Below, in pieces: positions 49,447-55,911 of a DNA stretch of 64,000 nt; positions within the stretch are counted from its first letter, which is position 1; every line of letters begins with the position of its first letter. Origin of the DNA: Peribacillus simplex. GTDB lineage: Bacteria; Bacillota; Bacilli; Bacillales; DSM-1321. Position numbers and translations under genes: made by a program. The notes below the pieces were generated by a model, which saw only the letters and a list, made by a program, of their open reading frames with translations, had not been told where the DNA came from and ran no database searches. Location: contig NZ_CP011008.1 in NCBI RefSeq assembly GCF_001578185.1, positions 958,001-1,022,000 on the forward strand, in the 5' to 3' direction.

Positions 49447-50328
49447 ATGAGAAAGTTTAAGAAAGTTTATGTGGAAATTACAAATATATGTAACTTGAAG
49501 TGTAATTTTTGTCCAAGCTCCAGCTTGCAAAGGACTCTTAAATTCATGGATCCTGAAGGGTTTACACATGTAATCGAGAAAATCAAACCGCACACCGATC
49601 ACATTTATTTTCATCTGATGGGTGAACCCTTTTTAAATAAAAATTTGGGTACATTCCTGGATATCAGTGCAGAAAATGGCCTAAAGGTGAATATAACAAC
49701 GAACGGTACTTTGATTCAAAAGGTCAAAGAAAAGCTGCTCTCCAAAAAAGCCCTTCGTCAGGTGAATATTTCACTTCATAGCTTCGAGGCAAACGATACG
49801 AGCAATAGTCTCGACTCATATGTCAGTAATATTGCCGATTTCATAAATGAGGCAAATGAAAAAAGTGAAATGATTTGTGCCATTCGTTTATGGAATATGG
49901 ATACGGATGAACTAAAAGCGAGTAATGGCCTGAACGACGATATTCTCAGCATGTTGGAGGAGAAGCTTTCATTGGACATTCGTTTAAGTGAAGCTCTTCA
50001 GCAGAAGAATAATATTAAATTGAAGGACCGTGTTTATATAAACATGGCTGAAAAATTCGAGTGGCCAGAATTGGACCGTGACATTATCGATGAGAATATT
50101 TTCTGCTATGCTCTTAGAGATCAGTTAGGCATTTTGGTGGATGGTACAGTCGTACCTTGTTGTTTGGATAGTGAAGGGAAAATTCCACTGGGGAATATAT
50201 TTGAAACGTCACTTGAAGATATTTTAAATGGTGAACGGGCTAAAAATATGTATGATGGTTTTTCAAGAAGATGTGCAGTTGAAGAATTATGTAAACGATG
50301 TGGCTATGCAAAGCGTCATAAAAAATAA
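49447..50328 (+). CDS. Radical SAM / SPASM protein, orphan
   Basis: 293 residues. The [4Fe-4S]-SAM cluster motif CNLKCNFC is at residues ~15-22 and the GEPF strand (HLMGEPFLNKN) follows. A C-terminal SPASM domain carries auxiliary cluster cysteines in FCYALRDQ, VVPCCLDSEGKIPLGN and RRCAVEELCKRCGYAKR. SPASM enzymes usually modify peptides or proteins or mature cofactors. No precursor-peptide gene, transporter or modification partner lies on either side, and the upstream 240 nt hold only chance frames. Single-gene transcript. Substrate unknown. Confidence 0.88.
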   Translation: MRKFKKVYVEITNICNLKCNFCPSSSLQRTLKFMDPEGFTHVIEKIKPHTDHIYFHLMGEPFLNKNLGTFLDISAENGLKVNITTNGTLIQKVKEKLLSKKALRQVNISLHSFEANDTSNSLDSYVSNIADFINEANEKSEMICAIRLWNMDTDELKASNGLNDDILSMLEEKLSLDIRLSEALQQKNNIKLKDRVYINMAEKFEWPELDRDIIDENIFCYALRDQLGILVDGTVVPCCLDSEGKIPLGNIFETSLEDILNGERAKNMYDGFSRRCAVEELCKRCGYAKRHKK

Positions 50329-50533
50329 ATAAAGATAAGGAAACCATGGAGTTCATCTTCGTGGTTTTTTTGTGATTGAGGTACATTGACATTTCTTTTT
50401 ATTAAAAATTCTGAATATTATTGTTTTATTAAAAGTCCCATGATAAAATACTCTTTATTATTGATGAAGTAAAAACTTCATATTGTCATATTAGAAGTTT
50501 TGGATTCATATCTTGCTTCAGAGGGGATTTTTT

Positions 50534-51376
50534 ATGGAATTACAGCAAAAAGTTAAAGAAGTATTCCCTGGTTTATCAACTGGCCAAAAAAAGGTAGCAA
50601 AATACTTGTTAGTACATTCACATACATTTGCAGTCACTTCAGCTCAAAAGCTCGGGAATGATATAGGTGTGAGTGAAACGACCATCATCCGCTTTTGTTA
50701 TTCATTGGGGTTAAGTGGATTTGCGGAACTTCAAAAACTTATTCGAAATCAGTTGATATTCGAGAGCAGCAGTTTGAATGAATATCATTCTTCAAAACTT
50801 GAAGCTGCGAATCAACCAAACTTCATGGCTCAAGTGATGGGGCAGGATATCGTCAGTATCGAAAAGACAATCAAAAGTTTATCAAATGAAGATTTTTCTA
50901 AAACGGTTGATAAATTGGCGGCAGCCGACAATGTTTTGATATCCGGACATCGGTTATCATTTTCTGCGGCACATTGGTTAACCTTTACACTGAGGCTTGT
51001 CAGGGAGGAGGTCCATTTATATAGGCCGGATACTGATGATATTTTTTTACTGATGAATAAAATGACTGAAAATTCCGTCTTTGTAGCCATTTCATTTCAC
51101 CGTTATGTGAAAGAAACTGTGAAAATTACGGAAATGGCTAAACAAGCGGGTGCATTTGTAATTGGCGTAACGGATTCTGAATTGGCTCCGATTGCTGACT
51201 ACACTGACATTTTATTGCCTATTTCAACACCAAGGACTTCCACTATCGATACGGCACCGGTTTTATTTTCATTATTGAATAGTATAGTAGCTGGTGTATC
51301 GATTAAAGATGAACAGGGTTTTAAAAAAAGAAAGGCTATATATGATGCGTTCAATCAAGACGAATATTTCTTTTGA
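50534..51376 (+). CDS. RpiR-family transcriptional regulator
   Basis: 280 residues. An N-terminal RpiR HTH (VKEVFPGLSTGQKKVAKYLL, then LGNDIGVSETTIIRFCYSLGLSGFAELQKLI) is followed by a SIS sugar-isomerase-type sensor domain (~125-250: NVLISGHRLSFSAAHW, VFVAISFHRYVKETVKITEMAKQAGA, VIGVTD). RpiR proteins usually sense phosphorylated sugars such as MurNAc-6P. The usual SIS Ser/Thr loop is S-FHRY here. The start at 50534 follows AGAGGGGATTTTTT. It is the first gene before the deacylase-acyltransferase-racemase operon and probably controls it. Confidence 0.88.
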   Translation: MELQQKVKEVFPGLSTGQKKVAKYLLVHSHTFAVTSAQKLGNDIGVSETTIIRFCYSLGLSGFAELQKLIRNQLIFESSSLNEYHSSKLEAANQPNFMAQVMGQDIVSIEKTIKSLSNEDFSKTVDKLAAADNVLISGHRLSFSAAHWLTFTLRLVREEVHLYRPDTDDIFLLMNKMTENSVFVAISFHRYVKETVKITEMAKQAGAFVIGVTDSELAPIADYTDILLPISTPRTSTIDTAPVLFSLLNSIVAGVSIKDEQGFKKRKAIYDAFNQDEYFF

Positions 51377-51428
51377 AATAAAGTCATAAGTCAAGCCAAT
51401 TAAGCCGGGAGTTAAGGGGGAGACAGAA

Positions 51429-52583
51429 ATGGATATCAAACTAACAATCGGAAAATTAAGGCCGCGTATCATCGATATCTTCGACCATTTACACGCACAT
51501 CCTGAAACGAGTTGGAATGAAGTGAGTACGACAGCATTCATTTCCAATATTTTAATGGAAAATCAATGCAAGGTAAAATCATTCGAAGACTGTACAGGAG
51601 TGATTGGGGAAATCGGGGATGGGAATTTCACAGTCGGGTTACGATCGGATATCGATGCACTTTGGCAGGAGGTGCATGGGACGTTTCAGGCCAATCATTC
51701 ATGTGGACACGATGGGCATATGACCTTGGCGCTTGGAGTTTTCCTGGTATTGAAGGAAATGGACTTTCGACCAAGAGGTAAGCTGAAATTCATTTTTCAG
51801 CCTGCTGAAGAAAAAGGTACGGGCGCCTTGAAGATGATTGAAGAGAAAGTTTTGGATGATGTCGATTTCCTTTATGGAGTGCACTTAAGGCCAGTTGAGG
51901 AAGTGAAGGATGGGCAGGCGGCTCCAGCCATTGTCCATGGGGCTGCCCAGTTCATTAAAGGAGAAATAGCGGGGACGGATGCACATGGAGCCAGACCGCA
52001 TCAAGGGCAAAATGCCATCGAGATAGGAGCAGCATTCGTCACTTTATTAAATGGTATCCATCTCAATCCGTCCATCCCTTATTCAGTAAAAATGACGCAG
52101 TTTTTTGCTGGGGGCGAAAGTTCCAATATCATCCCAGGGAGAGCCACTTTCTCATTGGATTTAAGGGCTCAGGATAATGCTGTCATGGAAGAGCTCACCA
52201 AAAAGGTGGAAAAAGTTGCCGAATCCTTGGCCATTGTCCATGGAGTTGAAATGAAACTCGAACCGGGAACCAACGTTGCTGCAGCAATCGTGAACGAACA
52301 AGCCCAGGAAATAATGGCTGAAGCGATAGCCGATACACTCGGAGAAGAAAATCTGGTAGCGCCTGTCATTACAACTGGAGGAGAGGATTTTCATTTTTAT
52401 ACGCTGAAAAGACCCAAGCTCAAAGCGACGATGCTTGGGTTGGGATGTAATTTGACACCAGGGCTCCATCATCCGAACATGACGTTCAACAAAGATGCTT
52501 TGTTATCGGGAATTGAAATCCTGACTAAGGCCATCATATTTACTTTCGAGAAATATGGCGAGGGGGGACACCTACATGACTGA
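51429..52583 (+). CDS. M20-family amidohydrolase, probable N-acyl-L-amino-acid deacylase
   Basis: 384 residues of the M20D zinc amidohydrolase type. Metal ligands are in SCGHDGHMT, PAEEKGTGA (Glu-Glu), GVHLRP and the C-terminal GLHHPNMTF. The lid domain has HGAARPHQGQNAIE-like residues (DAHGARPHQG). It resembles B. subtilis AmhX. Here it is followed, with an 8-nt overlap, by a GNAT and an N-acylamino-acid racemase. This matches the three-enzyme route in which it would remove the acyl (succinyl) group from the N-acyl-L-amino acid. AAGGGGGAGACAGAA precedes the ATG. Confidence 0.88.
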   Translation: MDIKLTIGKLRPRIIDIFDHLHAHPETSWNEVSTTAFISNILMENQCKVKSFEDCTGVIGEIGDGNFTVGLRSDIDALWQEVHGTFQANHSCGHDGHMTLALGVFLVLKEMDFRPRGKLKFIFQPAEEKGTGALKMIEEKVLDDVDFLYGVHLRPVEEVKDGQAAPAIVHGAAQFIKGEIAGTDAHGARPHQGQNAIEIGAAFVTLLNGIHLNPSIPYSVKMTQFFAGGESSNIIPGRATFSLDLRAQDNAVMEELTKKVEKVAESLAIVHGVEMKLEPGTNVAAAIVNEQAQEIMAEAIADTLGEENLVAPVITTGGEDFHFYTLKRPKLKATMLGLGCNLTPGLHHPNMTFNKDALLSGIEILTKAIIFTFEKYGEGGHLHD

Positions 52584-53370
52584 TGAATTAATCATTAAAT
52601 CCCTAACAACACTAGAGGACTTACAAGAAGTACAGCGTCTTGAAATCCTTGTATGGGGCATGGATTGCGTTCCTACCCATCAGACGATTACCGCAGTCAA
52701 AAACGGAGGGCTTGTTTTAGGCGGCTATATCAATGACCAGTTAGTTGGATTTCAATACAGTTTCCCGGGATTCAAGGATGGAAGGGTGTTTCTTTGTTCA
52801 CATATGTTAGCCATCCATCCGGCTCATCAAAAGAAGGGCTACGGCAGATTACTTAAACTGGCACAAAAAGAAGAAGCGCTCAAAAAAGGCTACAATCTAA
52901 TTACATGGACATATGATCCATTGGAAAGTGTGAACGCAAACTTGAATATCGGTAAACTAAAAGCGGTTTGTTCAACATATATGGAAGATTGTTATGGAAA
53001 TATGAAGGATACCCTCAATGAAGGATTGTCCACTGATCGTTTCATGGTGGAATGGAATATAGGGCAGGGAGCAAAGGAAGAGACACCGCTTCCTGATAAA
53101 GCCATACACATCGTAACCACAGAAATGAATGACCAAGGCTTTCCTTACATCAAGGATTATCATTTGGAAACCAATGCCGACGTGGTCGCCATTCCCATTC
53201 CGACAGATATTCAAAAAATCAAAAAAGATGATCTCCGCCTTGCGATTGATTGGCGGTTAAAAACCGGTGAATTATTCAAAGCTTTTTTTGCCAAAGGATA
53301 TGTTGCAGCCGGGATCGAACGGGAACAAGGTGAAACCATTCAAAACTATTTATTAAAAAAACAAGAATAA
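52576..53370 (+). CDS. GNAT-family acyltransferase (COG3375 type)
   Basis: 264 residues. The acyl-CoA binding strand-loop reads [21 protein letters not shown] (motif A, with Q/R-x-x-G-x-G), followed by [19 protein letters not shown], the signature of the COG3375 predicted GNATs. In the D- to L-amino-acid pathway described for Geobacillus and Bacillus, a GNAT of this kind succinylates D-amino acids. Its ATG overlaps the end of the deacylase gene (ATGACTGA), implying coupling. GAGGGGGGACACCTAC is the ribosome site. Confidence 0.87.
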
Positions 53371-53383
53371 GAGGGGAATCGGG

Positions 53384-54493
53384 ATGAAAATAACAGAAGT
53401 GCGTTTACGTCATTTAAATATGGATTTGGTAGCTCCGTTTACAACAAGTTTTGGAACATTTGTAGATAAGGAATTCATACTTGTGGAAGTGAAAAATGGA
53501 GAGGGGCTTTCGGGCTGGGCTGAATCTGTGGCGTTTTCAGCACCTTGGTATAACGAAGAAACCATAAAAACCAATTGGACCATGCTGGAGGATTTCCTGA
53601 TTCCGCTTGTATTGAATAAAGAAATAGAGCATCCTCGTGATGTATCGGATATGTTCTCGCATATTCGCAAAAATAATATGGCAAAATCGGCAATCGAGGG
53701 GGCCATCTGGGATTTATATGCGAAAGAAAAGAATATTCCATTAAGTATTGCTTTAGGCGGGGACCTAAAAAAAATCGATGTTGGAATCAGCATCGGCATC
53801 CAAAAAACGGTACCTGAATTACTGGCGAAGATAGAAGCTGGATTGAGAGATGGGTATAAAAGAATCAAAATGAAAATACAACCAGGATGGGATGTAGATG
53901 TAATCAGGGAAGTACGCAGTCGATATCCCGATGTTCCGATCATGGCGGATGCAAACTCCGCTTACCGGCTGAAAGACATCGAATTACTGAAACAACTTGA
54001 TCAATTTGATTTAATGATGATCGAGCAGCCCTTGTCATCAGACGATATTGTCGATCATGCCACATTACAGGCGGAAATCAAAACACCGATTTGCTTGGAT
54101 GAAAGTATACATTCCGTGGAAGATGCAAGAAAAGCCCTTGAATTGGGAAGCTGTAAAATCATTAATATTAAGATCGGCAGGGTTGGCGGTTTAACGGAAG
54201 CAATGAAAATACATGAATTATGTAAAGAAAGAAATGTTCCGGTTTGGTGCGGAGGCATGTTGGAATCCGGTGTGGGGCGTGCCCATAATATCGCATTGAC
54301 AACACTTGATAACTTCACGATGCCTGGTGATACGGCAGCATCCGCGAATTATTGGCATAAGGACATCATTCAACCAGAGGTTACAGTGGAAGATGGAGTC
54401 ATAACTGTGCCAAAGGCGGCAGGCATTGGCTATGAAGTCAATTACGCTAGGGTCGATGAATTCACTTCCCATAGTAAAAGATATACCAAATGA
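53384..54493 (+). CDS. N-acylamino-acid racemase / o-succinylbenzoate synthase family
   Basis: Enolase-superfamily enzyme, 369 aa. The catalytic Lys pair is K162-x-K164 (RIKMKI), the Mg ligands D189 (MADANS), E214 (MIEQPL) and D239 (CLDES), and the opposing Lys263 ([10 protein letters not shown]). All are present. Such proteins carry OSBS and N-succinylamino-acid racemase activity. Here no menaquinone genes are nearby, and the operon partners are an M20 deacylase and a GNAT, so the racemase role is favoured. AAGAGGGGAATCGGG precedes the ATG, 13 nt after the GNAT stop. Confidence 0.92.
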
Positions 54494-54524
54494 TAAATGA
54501 CCAAGAGTTGGAATAATGGCTCTA

Positions 54525-54568
54525 CCCAGCTTCATGGGCGATGGATCGTAAAAATTACTGAAGCTGGG
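54525..54568 (+). other. Intercistronic hairpin before the YkvI-like gene
   Basis: CCCAGCTTCA pairs perfectly with TGAAGCTGGG across a 24-nt loop. No T-run follows, so it looks like an mRNA processing or attenuating structure rather than a terminator. Confidence 0.5.
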
Positions 54569-54662
54569 AAGCTATTACGGATCAGGGATTGTGATGAACG
54601 GGAAGATATTTCATTTAATCCAAGTTATCAGAATAATCTTTTAATTAGGGCGGGGGTCTGAT

Positions 54663-55742
54663 ATGAAAAACAGTGTAAATCTTGCAGGGGCATATATTGG
54701 AATCATCATTGGAGCAGGCTTTGCTTCAGGACAAGAAGTATTACAATTCTTCACTAGCTTTGGAATCTACAGTGTATTGGGAATTGTGGTTGCGACAGCT
54801 TTATTCGCGTTCTTAGGCATGCAAGTTACGCAATTGGGGAGCACTTTGCAAACGCGCTCCCATAAAAGCATCATCGAACATATTTGTGGCCGCTATTTAG
54901 GCAGGGTGGTCGATGTTATTATCACATTTTTCTTGTTTGGCGTTACTGTCATCATGATTGCTGGTTCCGGAACGATTTTTGAAGAACAATTCGGGATTCC
55001 CAGTATAGTAGGTGCAATTGTCATGGCAGTGCTGACGATTGGCACGCTCTTACTTAATGTTAATAAAATAATGTCCATCATTAGTGCCATCACACCGTTT
55101 TTATTTGTTATCATGATCATTATTTCAGGTTATTCATTTTTCACATCCGATCTAAGTTTCAATGAAATCATTTCATCTTCAAGTAAAGGAAATGCTGCAA
55201 CCGGAAACTGGATAATGGGTTCATTACTTTATGTTTCATATAATATGACTGCCGGAATTGCCATGCTAGCCGTAATGGGAGGGACCTTCAAGAATAAGAA
55301 GGAGGCTGGTATTGGAGGGATTCTGGGAGGTATCGGATTGGGAATCTTGCTATTGTTAATCAATTTGGGGATGATGTCCGACTTGAAGGGCATAGAAGGC
55401 TCAGGAATGCCTACCCTTCATTTAGCGAATCAGATTTCTCCATGGTTGGGATATATCCTATCAATCATCCTTTTAGGAATGATTTATAATACCGCTGTCG
55501 GGATGCTGTATGCATTCACAGCCAGGTTGGTTCCTGCCGAAACGAGACGCTTTAAAATATCCGTGATAATGGTAGGGATCCTCGCCTTCCTTGCAAGTTT
55601 CGTTGGCTTCATAAAATTGGTTGGAACGGTATACCCAGTCACAGGATATTTAGGCTTTGTAATCATTGCAGCCCTTATCATTTCCTGGATTCGGTCAAAG
55701 GCGAAAAAGGGGGCAGTGAATACGGAATTCGCAAAATTTTAA
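54663..55742 (+). CDS. YkvI-family membrane transporter
   Basis: 359 residues with ten helices. The N-terminal NLAGAYIGIIIGAGFASGQEVLQFF is the family signature and resembles the unwound TM1 substrate site of LeuT/APC-fold amino-acid and NSS transporters. YkvI proteins are uncharacterised. Placement 170 nt after the racemase, on the same strand with no terminator between, suggests it imports the amino acid or its N-acyl derivative. GGGCGGGGGTCTGAT precedes the ATG. Confidence 0.82.
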   Translation: MKNSVNLAGAYIGIIIGAGFASGQEVLQFFTSFGIYSVLGIVVATALFAFLGMQVTQLGSTLQTRSHKSIIEHICGRYLGRVVDVIITFFLFGVTVIMIAGSGTIFEEQFGIPSIVGAIVMAVLTIGTLLLNVNKIMSIISAITPFLFVIMIIISGYSFFTSDLSFNEIISSSSKGNAATGNWIMGSLLYVSYNMTAGIAMLAVMGGTFKNKKEAGIGGILGGIGLGILLLLINLGMMSDLKGIEGSGMPTLHLANQISPWLGYILSIILLGMIYNTAVGMLYAFTARLVPAETRRFKISVIMVGILAFLASFVGFIKLVGTVYPVTGYLGFVIIAALIISWIRSKAKKGAVNTEFAKF

Positions 55743-55789: not shown

Positions 55790-55824
55790 AACAGACATCT
55801 TCTTCATGGAGGTGTTTTTTTTAT
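55790..55824 (+). terminator. Terminator of the amino-acid operon
   Basis: ACATCTTC-TTCAT-GGAGGTGT stem (with G-T pairs) followed by TTTTTTT. Confidence 0.75.
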
Positions 55825-55911
55825 TATCGAGGATCTTTACTCATGATCACGGCATTTTTCCTCCTTTTTTTCATACATTAGTTTAAAGGCGGAAGACAAG
55901 GGGGATATCGG

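Follow-up and report, generated by a model that had tools for sequence, protein, structure and literature searches.

A putative D-amino-acid scavenging operon of Peribacillus simplex with an RpiR regulator devoid of the sugar-phosphate loop and a YkvI-like transporter

The contig NZ_CP011008.1 of Peribacillus simplex (assembly GCF_001578185.1; genome size 5.5 Mb) contains five consecutive genes on the plus strand, in which an RpiR-family regulator and a YkvI-like membrane protein flank three presumed enzymes of D- to L-amino-acid conversion. What does this gene cluster do for the cell, and to which kind of signal does its regulator respond? The cluster was analyzed within a stretch of 64,000 nucleotides (nt; positions 958,001 to 1,022,000 of the forward strand), which is referred to as the window and to which all coordinates apply unless a locus is named. 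The five genes probably constitute a starvation-controlled operon for the scavenging of D-amino acids, with an RpiR switch of an amino-acid type and a LeuT-fold importer. The enzymes include a racemase of the type shared by N-succinylamino-acid racemases (NSAR) and o-succinylbenzoate synthases (OSBS), and the features of the unit are:

50534..51376, plus strand: RpiR-family regulator with HTH_6 and SIS domains and the SIS loop SFHRY (Pfam, motif comparison)
51429..52583, plus strand: M20 deacylase of the amidohydrolase type, presumed N-succinyl-L-amino-acid desuccinylase (Pfam Peptidase_M20 and M20_dimer, NCBIfam)
52576..53370, plus strand: GNAT protein, presumed D-amino-acid N-succinyltransferase (Pfam, homologue search)
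53384..54493, plus strand: NSAR/OSBS-type racemase of the enolase superfamily (MR_MLE_N/C, residue check, PDB relatives)
54663..55742, plus strand: YkvI-like membrane protein that presumably imports amino acids as a member of the LeuT-fold (APC) superfamily (homologue and profile comparison)
55793..55827, plus strand: hairpin with T-run resembling a terminator, where the operon presumably ends (terminator scan)

Gene order and strand, as given in an earlier note on this DNA, were confirmed for all five open reading frames (ORFs) and by their Pfam domains, the fifth protein having no Pfam name. The intergenic gaps measured between the window ORFs are 52, -8, 13 and 169 nt in gene order, and the previous description of short gaps or overlaps thus applies to the first four genes and fails for the last gap. 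The 8-nt overlap of the M20 and GNAT genes was evident from the ORF coordinates, with a further in-frame ATG of the GNAT gene located upstream at 52555. One of the two GNAT models of Pfam scored above its cut-off with the GNAT protein, and the residues KxK, D, E, D and K, which we take to be the catalytic ones of the racemase, are all present, as had been stated before. The terminator scan yielded 6 sites per 6.7 kb versus 4.5 expected, including the site at 55793 downstream of the fifth gene.

In the proposed mechanism, the YkvI-like transporter would import D-amino acids, the GNAT protein would N-succinylate them, the racemase would equilibrate the N-succinyl-D and N-succinyl-L forms, and the M20 enzyme would hydrolyze the N-succinyl-L form and draw the flow towards L-amino acids. 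The L-specificity of the M20 enzyme and the NSAR activity of the racemase are both presumed. Transcription would start mainly from one promoter in front of rpiR, and the RpiR protein would bind to a tandem palindromic operator downstream of this promoter, repressing the operon until it is released by a ligand of an amino-acid type, either a D-amino acid or an N-acylated one. When amino acids are plentiful, CodY would shut the operon. D-amino acids of the cell wall may be one source of substrate.

The spread of the enzyme genes was surveyed in 299 genomes of Bacilli, 77 of which contain a GNAT relative (E<=1e-10). A total of 102 loci was examined, consisting of 91 regions around GNAT matches (80+11), a second copy in the same genome, nine named loci found by GNAT similarity (six from Peribacillus, two from Bacillus sp., one from Paenibacillus sp.) and the window. 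The simple gene caller retained the GNAT gene in 97 of the 102 loci, and all locus counts are minimum numbers, because in some cases an overlapping antisense ORF took the place of a gene (for instance in L050). GNAT and racemase genes share one cluster in 66 of the 97 loci, where they usually overlap or lie a few nucleotides apart. When the window and seven close orthologues are set aside, 58 such loci remain, with a YkvI-like gene in 21, an rpiR gene in 34 and both in 15 of them; the corresponding numbers for the 45 complete trios of GNAT, racemase and M20 genes are 20, 30 and 14. Among the 31 GNAT loci without racemase, a YkvI-like gene was detected in one (L045, which carries a deletion) and rpiR in three (L045, L050, L115). 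The order RpiR-M20-GNAT-NSAR-YkvI was found again outside the genus Peribacillus, and the 21 loci with a YkvI-like gene carry seven family labels besides that of the window. Homology and this conserved context support the earlier assignment of the trio to a D- to L-amino-acid pathway. The operon also occurs on a plasmid of Lysinibacillus fusiformis, including the YkvI-like gene, which is annotated as 'hypothetical protein', with no RpiR listed; a plasmid of Priestia megaterium carries genes for RpiR, an amidohydrolase, GNAT and menC, with no YkvI-like gene listed. The operon, in the layout of the L. fusiformis plasmid, is also present on the 315-kb plasmid CP031730.1 (L273), filed under Stenotrophomonas rhizophila, whose source organism is possibly misnamed.

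The regulator had previously been regarded as carrying a sugar-phosphate-type SIS sensor. The loop S-x-S-G-x-[ST], which we take to be the sugar-phosphate signature of SIS domains, is absent from every one of the 40 RpiR proteins with 220 or more amino acids that are encoded in GNAT-racemase clusters, and each of them, including those of the window and its close orthologues (seven), has the pattern [ST]-x-x-R-Y instead, twice with T. Four other RpiR proteins of the host genome keep the loop (ISFSGET, ISISGTT, ISNSGET and FSTSGKT), and only the two located next to NSAR-type racemases are without it; the same search also returned a frame of 97 amino acids (L207). Next to the genes of the loop-keeping regulators lie those for EIIC and EIIB of the phosphotransferase system (PTS), together with one for a GKRP-like SIS protein, and those for NanE, MupG and a PTS IIB of the sorbose type. 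Since the loop is missing, the inference of a sugar-phosphate sensor fails, and the sensor as well as the link to cell-wall turnover drawn from it were abandoned: it is the four loop-keeping RpiR proteins of this genome that stand in a context of sugar and cell-wall-sugar genes.

A search with the regulator in the 299 genomes gave 26 RpiR matches of 200 bits or more, and 23 of these lie in GNAT or racemase loci already examined, one about 7 kb away from such a locus (G121:C96) and two elsewhere. Eighteen regions around other RpiR matches were inspected, of which 17 gave an RpiR protein, 15 with the x-R-Y pattern, and the neighbors found there by homology include racemase and M20 genes. Ten neighbors were typed at seven of the 15 x-R-Y loci: an M19 dipeptidase, a DUF819 protein, a member of the major facilitator superfamily (MFS) that also matches Sugar_tr, a DcuC protein, four M20 enzymes, an AstE/AspA-type protein and one without match. 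None of these ten is a PTS or amino-sugar gene, most neighbors at the 15 loci being outside the typed set.

The region in front of rpiR contains the following candidate control elements:

50405..50419, plus strand: CodY-box-like site AAAATTCTGAATATT, with 3 mismatches to AATTTTCWGAAAATT (motif comparison; similar position in other loci)
50421..50449, plus strand: promoter-like -35 TTGTTT and -10 TAAAAT at 17 nt spacing, agreeing with the consensus at 8 of 12 positions (conserved among close relatives; under the scan threshold)
50465..50480, plus strand: O1, inverted repeat TGAAGT-AAAA-ACTTCA without mismatch, a candidate operator for RpiR (motif search)
50493..50508, plus strand: O2, weaker copy AGAAGT-TTTG-GATTCA with 3 mismatches, 28 nt after O1 (motif search)

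The motif TGAAGT-N4-ACTTCA was searched upstream of rpiR in 34 loci, which comprise the window and the loci other than L040-L046. It is perfect in 11 loci, has at most one mismatch in 22 and at most two in 28, whereas 100 dinucleotide shuffles gave means of 0.0, 0.03 and 0.74, respectively. Among the 22 loci with at most one mismatch, a second copy of the motif with up to three mismatches follows O1 at a distance of 28-31 nt in 15 of the 21 testable ones, and no copy was detected in the eight other 4-nt bins tested between 20 and 55 nt downstream of O1 in these loci. Upstream of O1, such a copy occurs in 2 of 22 loci at 28-31 nt and in none of the other bins. The start of O1 lies 15 nt past the -10-like TAAAAT of the window, a position that suits repression, and we infer that RpiR acts as repressor rather than activator; the best promoter-like spacing varies in the other loci. 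The signal is a positional one. In fifteen whole genomes that were selected because they contain the operon, 21 perfect sites compare with 28 for the reversed pattern, and the motif was accordingly discarded as a genome-wide signal. Twelve of the 21 perfect sites lie at these operons according to their coordinates, one of the twelve heading an apparent racemase-M81-ABC operon with an rpiR gene inside (G002:C14), and seven of the other nine are located within ORFs. At position 9833 of L074, an operator-like site with one mismatch precedes the Amidohydro_3 gene that directly follows the racemase gene, which suggests a second controlled unit at that locus.

A second regulatory input may be marked by the CodY-like site, which was compared with the box consensus AATTTTCWGAAAATT as quoted in part of PMC5314169. 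The host genome contains a codY gene. Boxes with up to four mismatches lie 50-59 nt before O1 in 5 of 28 loci and 60-69 nt before it in 10 of 28, and 200 mononucleotide shuffles gave 0.48 and 0.56 for these two bins. Upstream sites with up to three mismatches were found in 12 of the 34 loci versus 2.64 expected from dinucleotide shuffles. The position of the box at the promoter points to amino-acid supply as a signal, and CodY would be predicted to bind there.

The fifth protein was named neither by Pfam nor by NCBIfam, and its two closest annotated relatives on plasmids are recorded as 'hypothetical protein'. The name YkvI is the label of the earlier note, no named YkvI sequence having been compared. 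Some YkvI-like gene is present in 232 of the 299 genomes, and the other homologue of the host genome is 27% identical to the protein of the window. The 17 best matches in these genomes (52-100% identity, the window included) all adjoin the trio by their coordinates, and the 18th does not. The YkvI-like gene can accordingly be retained as a recurrent partner of the trio, contrary to the lack of conservation that the note had named as refuting its reading; it is present in 20 and absent from 25 of the 45 trios. A search for its identity in PDB and Pfam gave nothing useful: the YkvI-like proteins had no useful sequence match in PDB, and PF05525 (branched-chain symporters) was reached by one of 31 YkvI-like proteins (E 2e-4). 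A profile of these 31 proteins matched a profile of 18 branched-chain symporters with 92.4% probability (E 5e-7) over 305 columns, and the POT, DcuC and reversed controls remained at 0.7% or less. Judged by this match, the YkvI-like family is related to amino-acid symporters of the LeuT-fold (APC) superfamily. In the part of PMC517825 consulted, ykvI is placed near a region bound by SpoIIID.

Operons without a YkvI-like gene can contain other transporters, as seen in representatives, an evident transporter not being seen in all 25 trios concerned: an AA_permease protein (L048), Gate-domain proteins (L061, L082) and SBP_bac_5 or Opp-type ABC systems (L066, L069). A POT peptide symporter gene is located upstream of the M20 gene in L112, which also has a YkvI-like gene. 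The ABC genes following the trio in L079, L097, L101 and L103 were dropped as candidates; we read them as a neighboring phosphate operon, given the PBP_like_2 binding protein of L079, the only one scanned, and gaps of 204-308 nt, that of L097 being measured across a small antisense ORF.

Could the racemase, instead, be a backup OSBS for menaquinone synthesis? It passes the NCBIfam model menC_lowGC_arch (TIGR01928) with 396.7 bits versus a cut-off of 200.65, and plasmid copies are annotated as menC. Its closest PDB chains are 1wue and 1wuf, which bear general names, followed by N-acylamino acid racemases. The same genome possesses a men operon (L190) with its own menC next to menD, menB and menE, the product of which also passes the model, and no men gene was found by Pfam and NCBIfam among the other window genes scanned beside the racemase. 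Given this second menC, menaquinone synthesis should be possible without the racemase of the window. The motif at the second catalytic Lys reads K-I-G-R in the window and K-x-G-R in the other NSAR-type operon racemases, and K-M-A-K in the MenC protein of the men operon; the Arg three residues after this Lys presumably corresponds to R266 of the Amycolatopsis enzyme, which we take to be an NSAR determinant tied to racemase activity. The backup role was rejected on account of the second menC and appears extremely improbable to us, and the refuting case named in the earlier note, a racemase with OSBS activity only, is weakened likewise. A salvage of N-acyl amino acids, in which racemase and M20 enzyme act on N-succinyl or N-acetyl amino acids that are taken up or formed as side products and GNAT has another role, is unlikely but deserves some weight. 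A racemase or M20 gene accompanies an x-R-Y RpiR without a recognized adjacent GNAT gene in L235, L236, L240-L242 and L248, and racemase and YkvI-like genes are paired without GNAT in L170, L172 and L229. The clustering of the racemase with GNAT in two thirds of the GNAT loci, mostly in overlap or close contact, argues against it.

The view that a sugar-phosphate-sensing RpiR turns on the recycling of D-amino acids from muropeptides is very improbable. D-amino acids are abundant in peptidoglycan, and an x-R-Y RpiR away from racemases (L232, 277 bits) is encoded beside the M19 dipeptidase; the uniform loss of the loop, its retention in the RpiR proteins beside PTS, NanE and MupG genes, and the absence of PTS and amino-sugar genes from the ten typed neighbors speak against it, with the reservation that the divergent MFS neighbor in L233 also matches Sugar_tr. 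Hardly more probable is a YkvI-like protein that exports the product or an unwanted amino acid. The 169-nt gap with its hairpin could mean separate dosing of the transporter, but the kinship with amino-acid symporters and the binding-protein-dependent ABC uptake systems of other such operons favor import.

Several observations count against a D-amino-acid scavenging operon under RpiR and CodY as described above. Six of the 34 loci have more than two mismatches in O1, which is also poorly matched in the subgroup with the loop SFPRY, to which the second copy of this genome belongs. The CodY-like sites are degenerate, the window total of 11 compares with 12-22 in shuffled sequences, and three loci fall into each of the bins covering 20-39 nt upstream of O1 (shuffled 0.5-0.7), the other bins holding 0-2. 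Besides the 25 trios without a YkvI-like gene, 15 of the 45 are without rpiR, both counts being subject to the lower-bound gene calling, and 11 of the 21 YkvI-linked loci belong to a single family (f12). In Peribacillus simplex RUG2-6 (L045, 8809-9330), one deletion of about 1.8 kb extends from the racemase start to the middle of the transporter gene and leaves an open frame. GNAT had no PDB relative (phmmer, E 0.001) and no NCBIfam name. Two MFS neighbors found at x-R-Y loci (L074, L233) gave matches to models of the sugar type, which were weak or did not reach the cut-off. The YkvI-like proteins of L090 and L099 are only distant (19-21% identity), which may reflect separate recruitment or a long-branch effect. 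Of the 45 YkvI-like rows placed in a tree, the 26 linked to NSAR are clustered but require four state changes, three of them forced by well-supported branches, and a single origin is not claimed. A sister group of 13 members is without adjacent racemase; its typed neighbors are acyl-CoA dehydrogenases (L159, L160, L162), a DAO-type oxidoreductase (L168), a Pyr_redox protein (L167) and a globin-type protein (L165).

Two further structures adjoin or lie within the operon:

50342..50370, plus strand: stem with T-run, resembling a terminator of the radical SAM gene upstream (kept in 7 aligned sequences including the window; absent from the terminator-scan list)
54525..54568, plus strand: hairpin CCCAGCTTCA...TGAAGCTGGG with 10-nt arms in the gap between racemase and transporter genes (single copy in the genome, without T-run)

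The former belongs to a gene for a radical SAM/SPASM protein at 49447-50328, which lies outside the operon. The hairpin is conserved in most aligned close relatives and not in L044; with its single copy and a fold z of -1.56 for the 176-nt stretch, no functional role was assigned to it. The second copy of the operon (L048, G000:C1:2005000-2020000) has the order RpiR (SFPRY), M20 fragment, amino-acid permease, GNAT, racemase, its M20 gene being incomplete. In Peribacillus frigoritolerans T7-IITJ (L039), both rpiR and the transporter gene are broken into two frames, by sequencing error or decay. In Paenibacillus sp. BSR1-1 (L047, 5661-8813), a racemase of another clade replaces NSAR beside M20 and GNAT, and L188 (G000:C1:1936000-1952000) contains a short ORF for a racemase from another enolase clade near a DcuC/YfcC-type transporter gene and an M20 gene whose product is 57% identical to that of the window.

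The chemistry of the trio is of a known kind. Sakai et al. are said to have described in 2006 a pathway of NSAR, succinyltransferase and desuccinylase in Geobacillus kaustophilus, which the present operon resembles in combining GNAT, an NSAR/OSBS-type racemase and an M20 enzyme; it differs by the x-R-Y RpiR, the YkvI-like transporter, the tandem palindromes and the CodY-like box. The racemases of L047 and L188 might, at a guess, resemble the 2007 racemase of N-succinyl amino acids that is cited in the consulted part of PMC4215206, the difference being K-L-M-K in place of K-x-G-R. The regulator shares HTH_6 and SIS with the RpiR/MurR family, the NCBIfam models HexR, AlsR and MurR all remaining below cut-off for the window protein, and the linked RpiR proteins differ from this family by having [ST]-x-x-R-Y instead of S-x-S-G-x-T. 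YkvI presumably belongs to the Putative Amino Acid Permease family (PAAP, 2.A.120), for which we know of no substrate. An excerpt of PMC5809530 places PAAP among the LeuT-fold families, listed as amino-acid transporters only; the YkvI-like protein would share this superfamily, while lacking a useful sequence match to a solved structure. The branched-chain amino acid:cation symporters resemble it at the profile level and form a separate family, as indicated by the single protein that reached PF05525.

No regulator, operator, inducer or transporter was found described for the trio pathway in the full-text literature searched, which is weak evidence with most subscription papers outside it. As far as searched, the regulator class, the tandem operator, the CodY-like input and the conserved transporter partner are undescribed. 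The filing of the operon racemase as menC by the NCBIfam model and in plasmid records can mislead metabolic models. Tentatively, and at a little below an even chance, the [ST]-x-x-R-Y RpiR proteins may represent a distinct class that senses amino-acid derivatives instead of sugar phosphates and acts through a tandem TGAAGT-N4-ACTTCA operator, with the linked YkvI-like clade as dedicated D-amino-acid importer. Regulator, operator and transporter become testable in a harmless soil genus through the RpiR signature of a non-sugar type, the candidate operator and the transporter gene that recurs beside the trio, and the importer role of the YkvI clade, if true, would give this transporter family its first physiological function.

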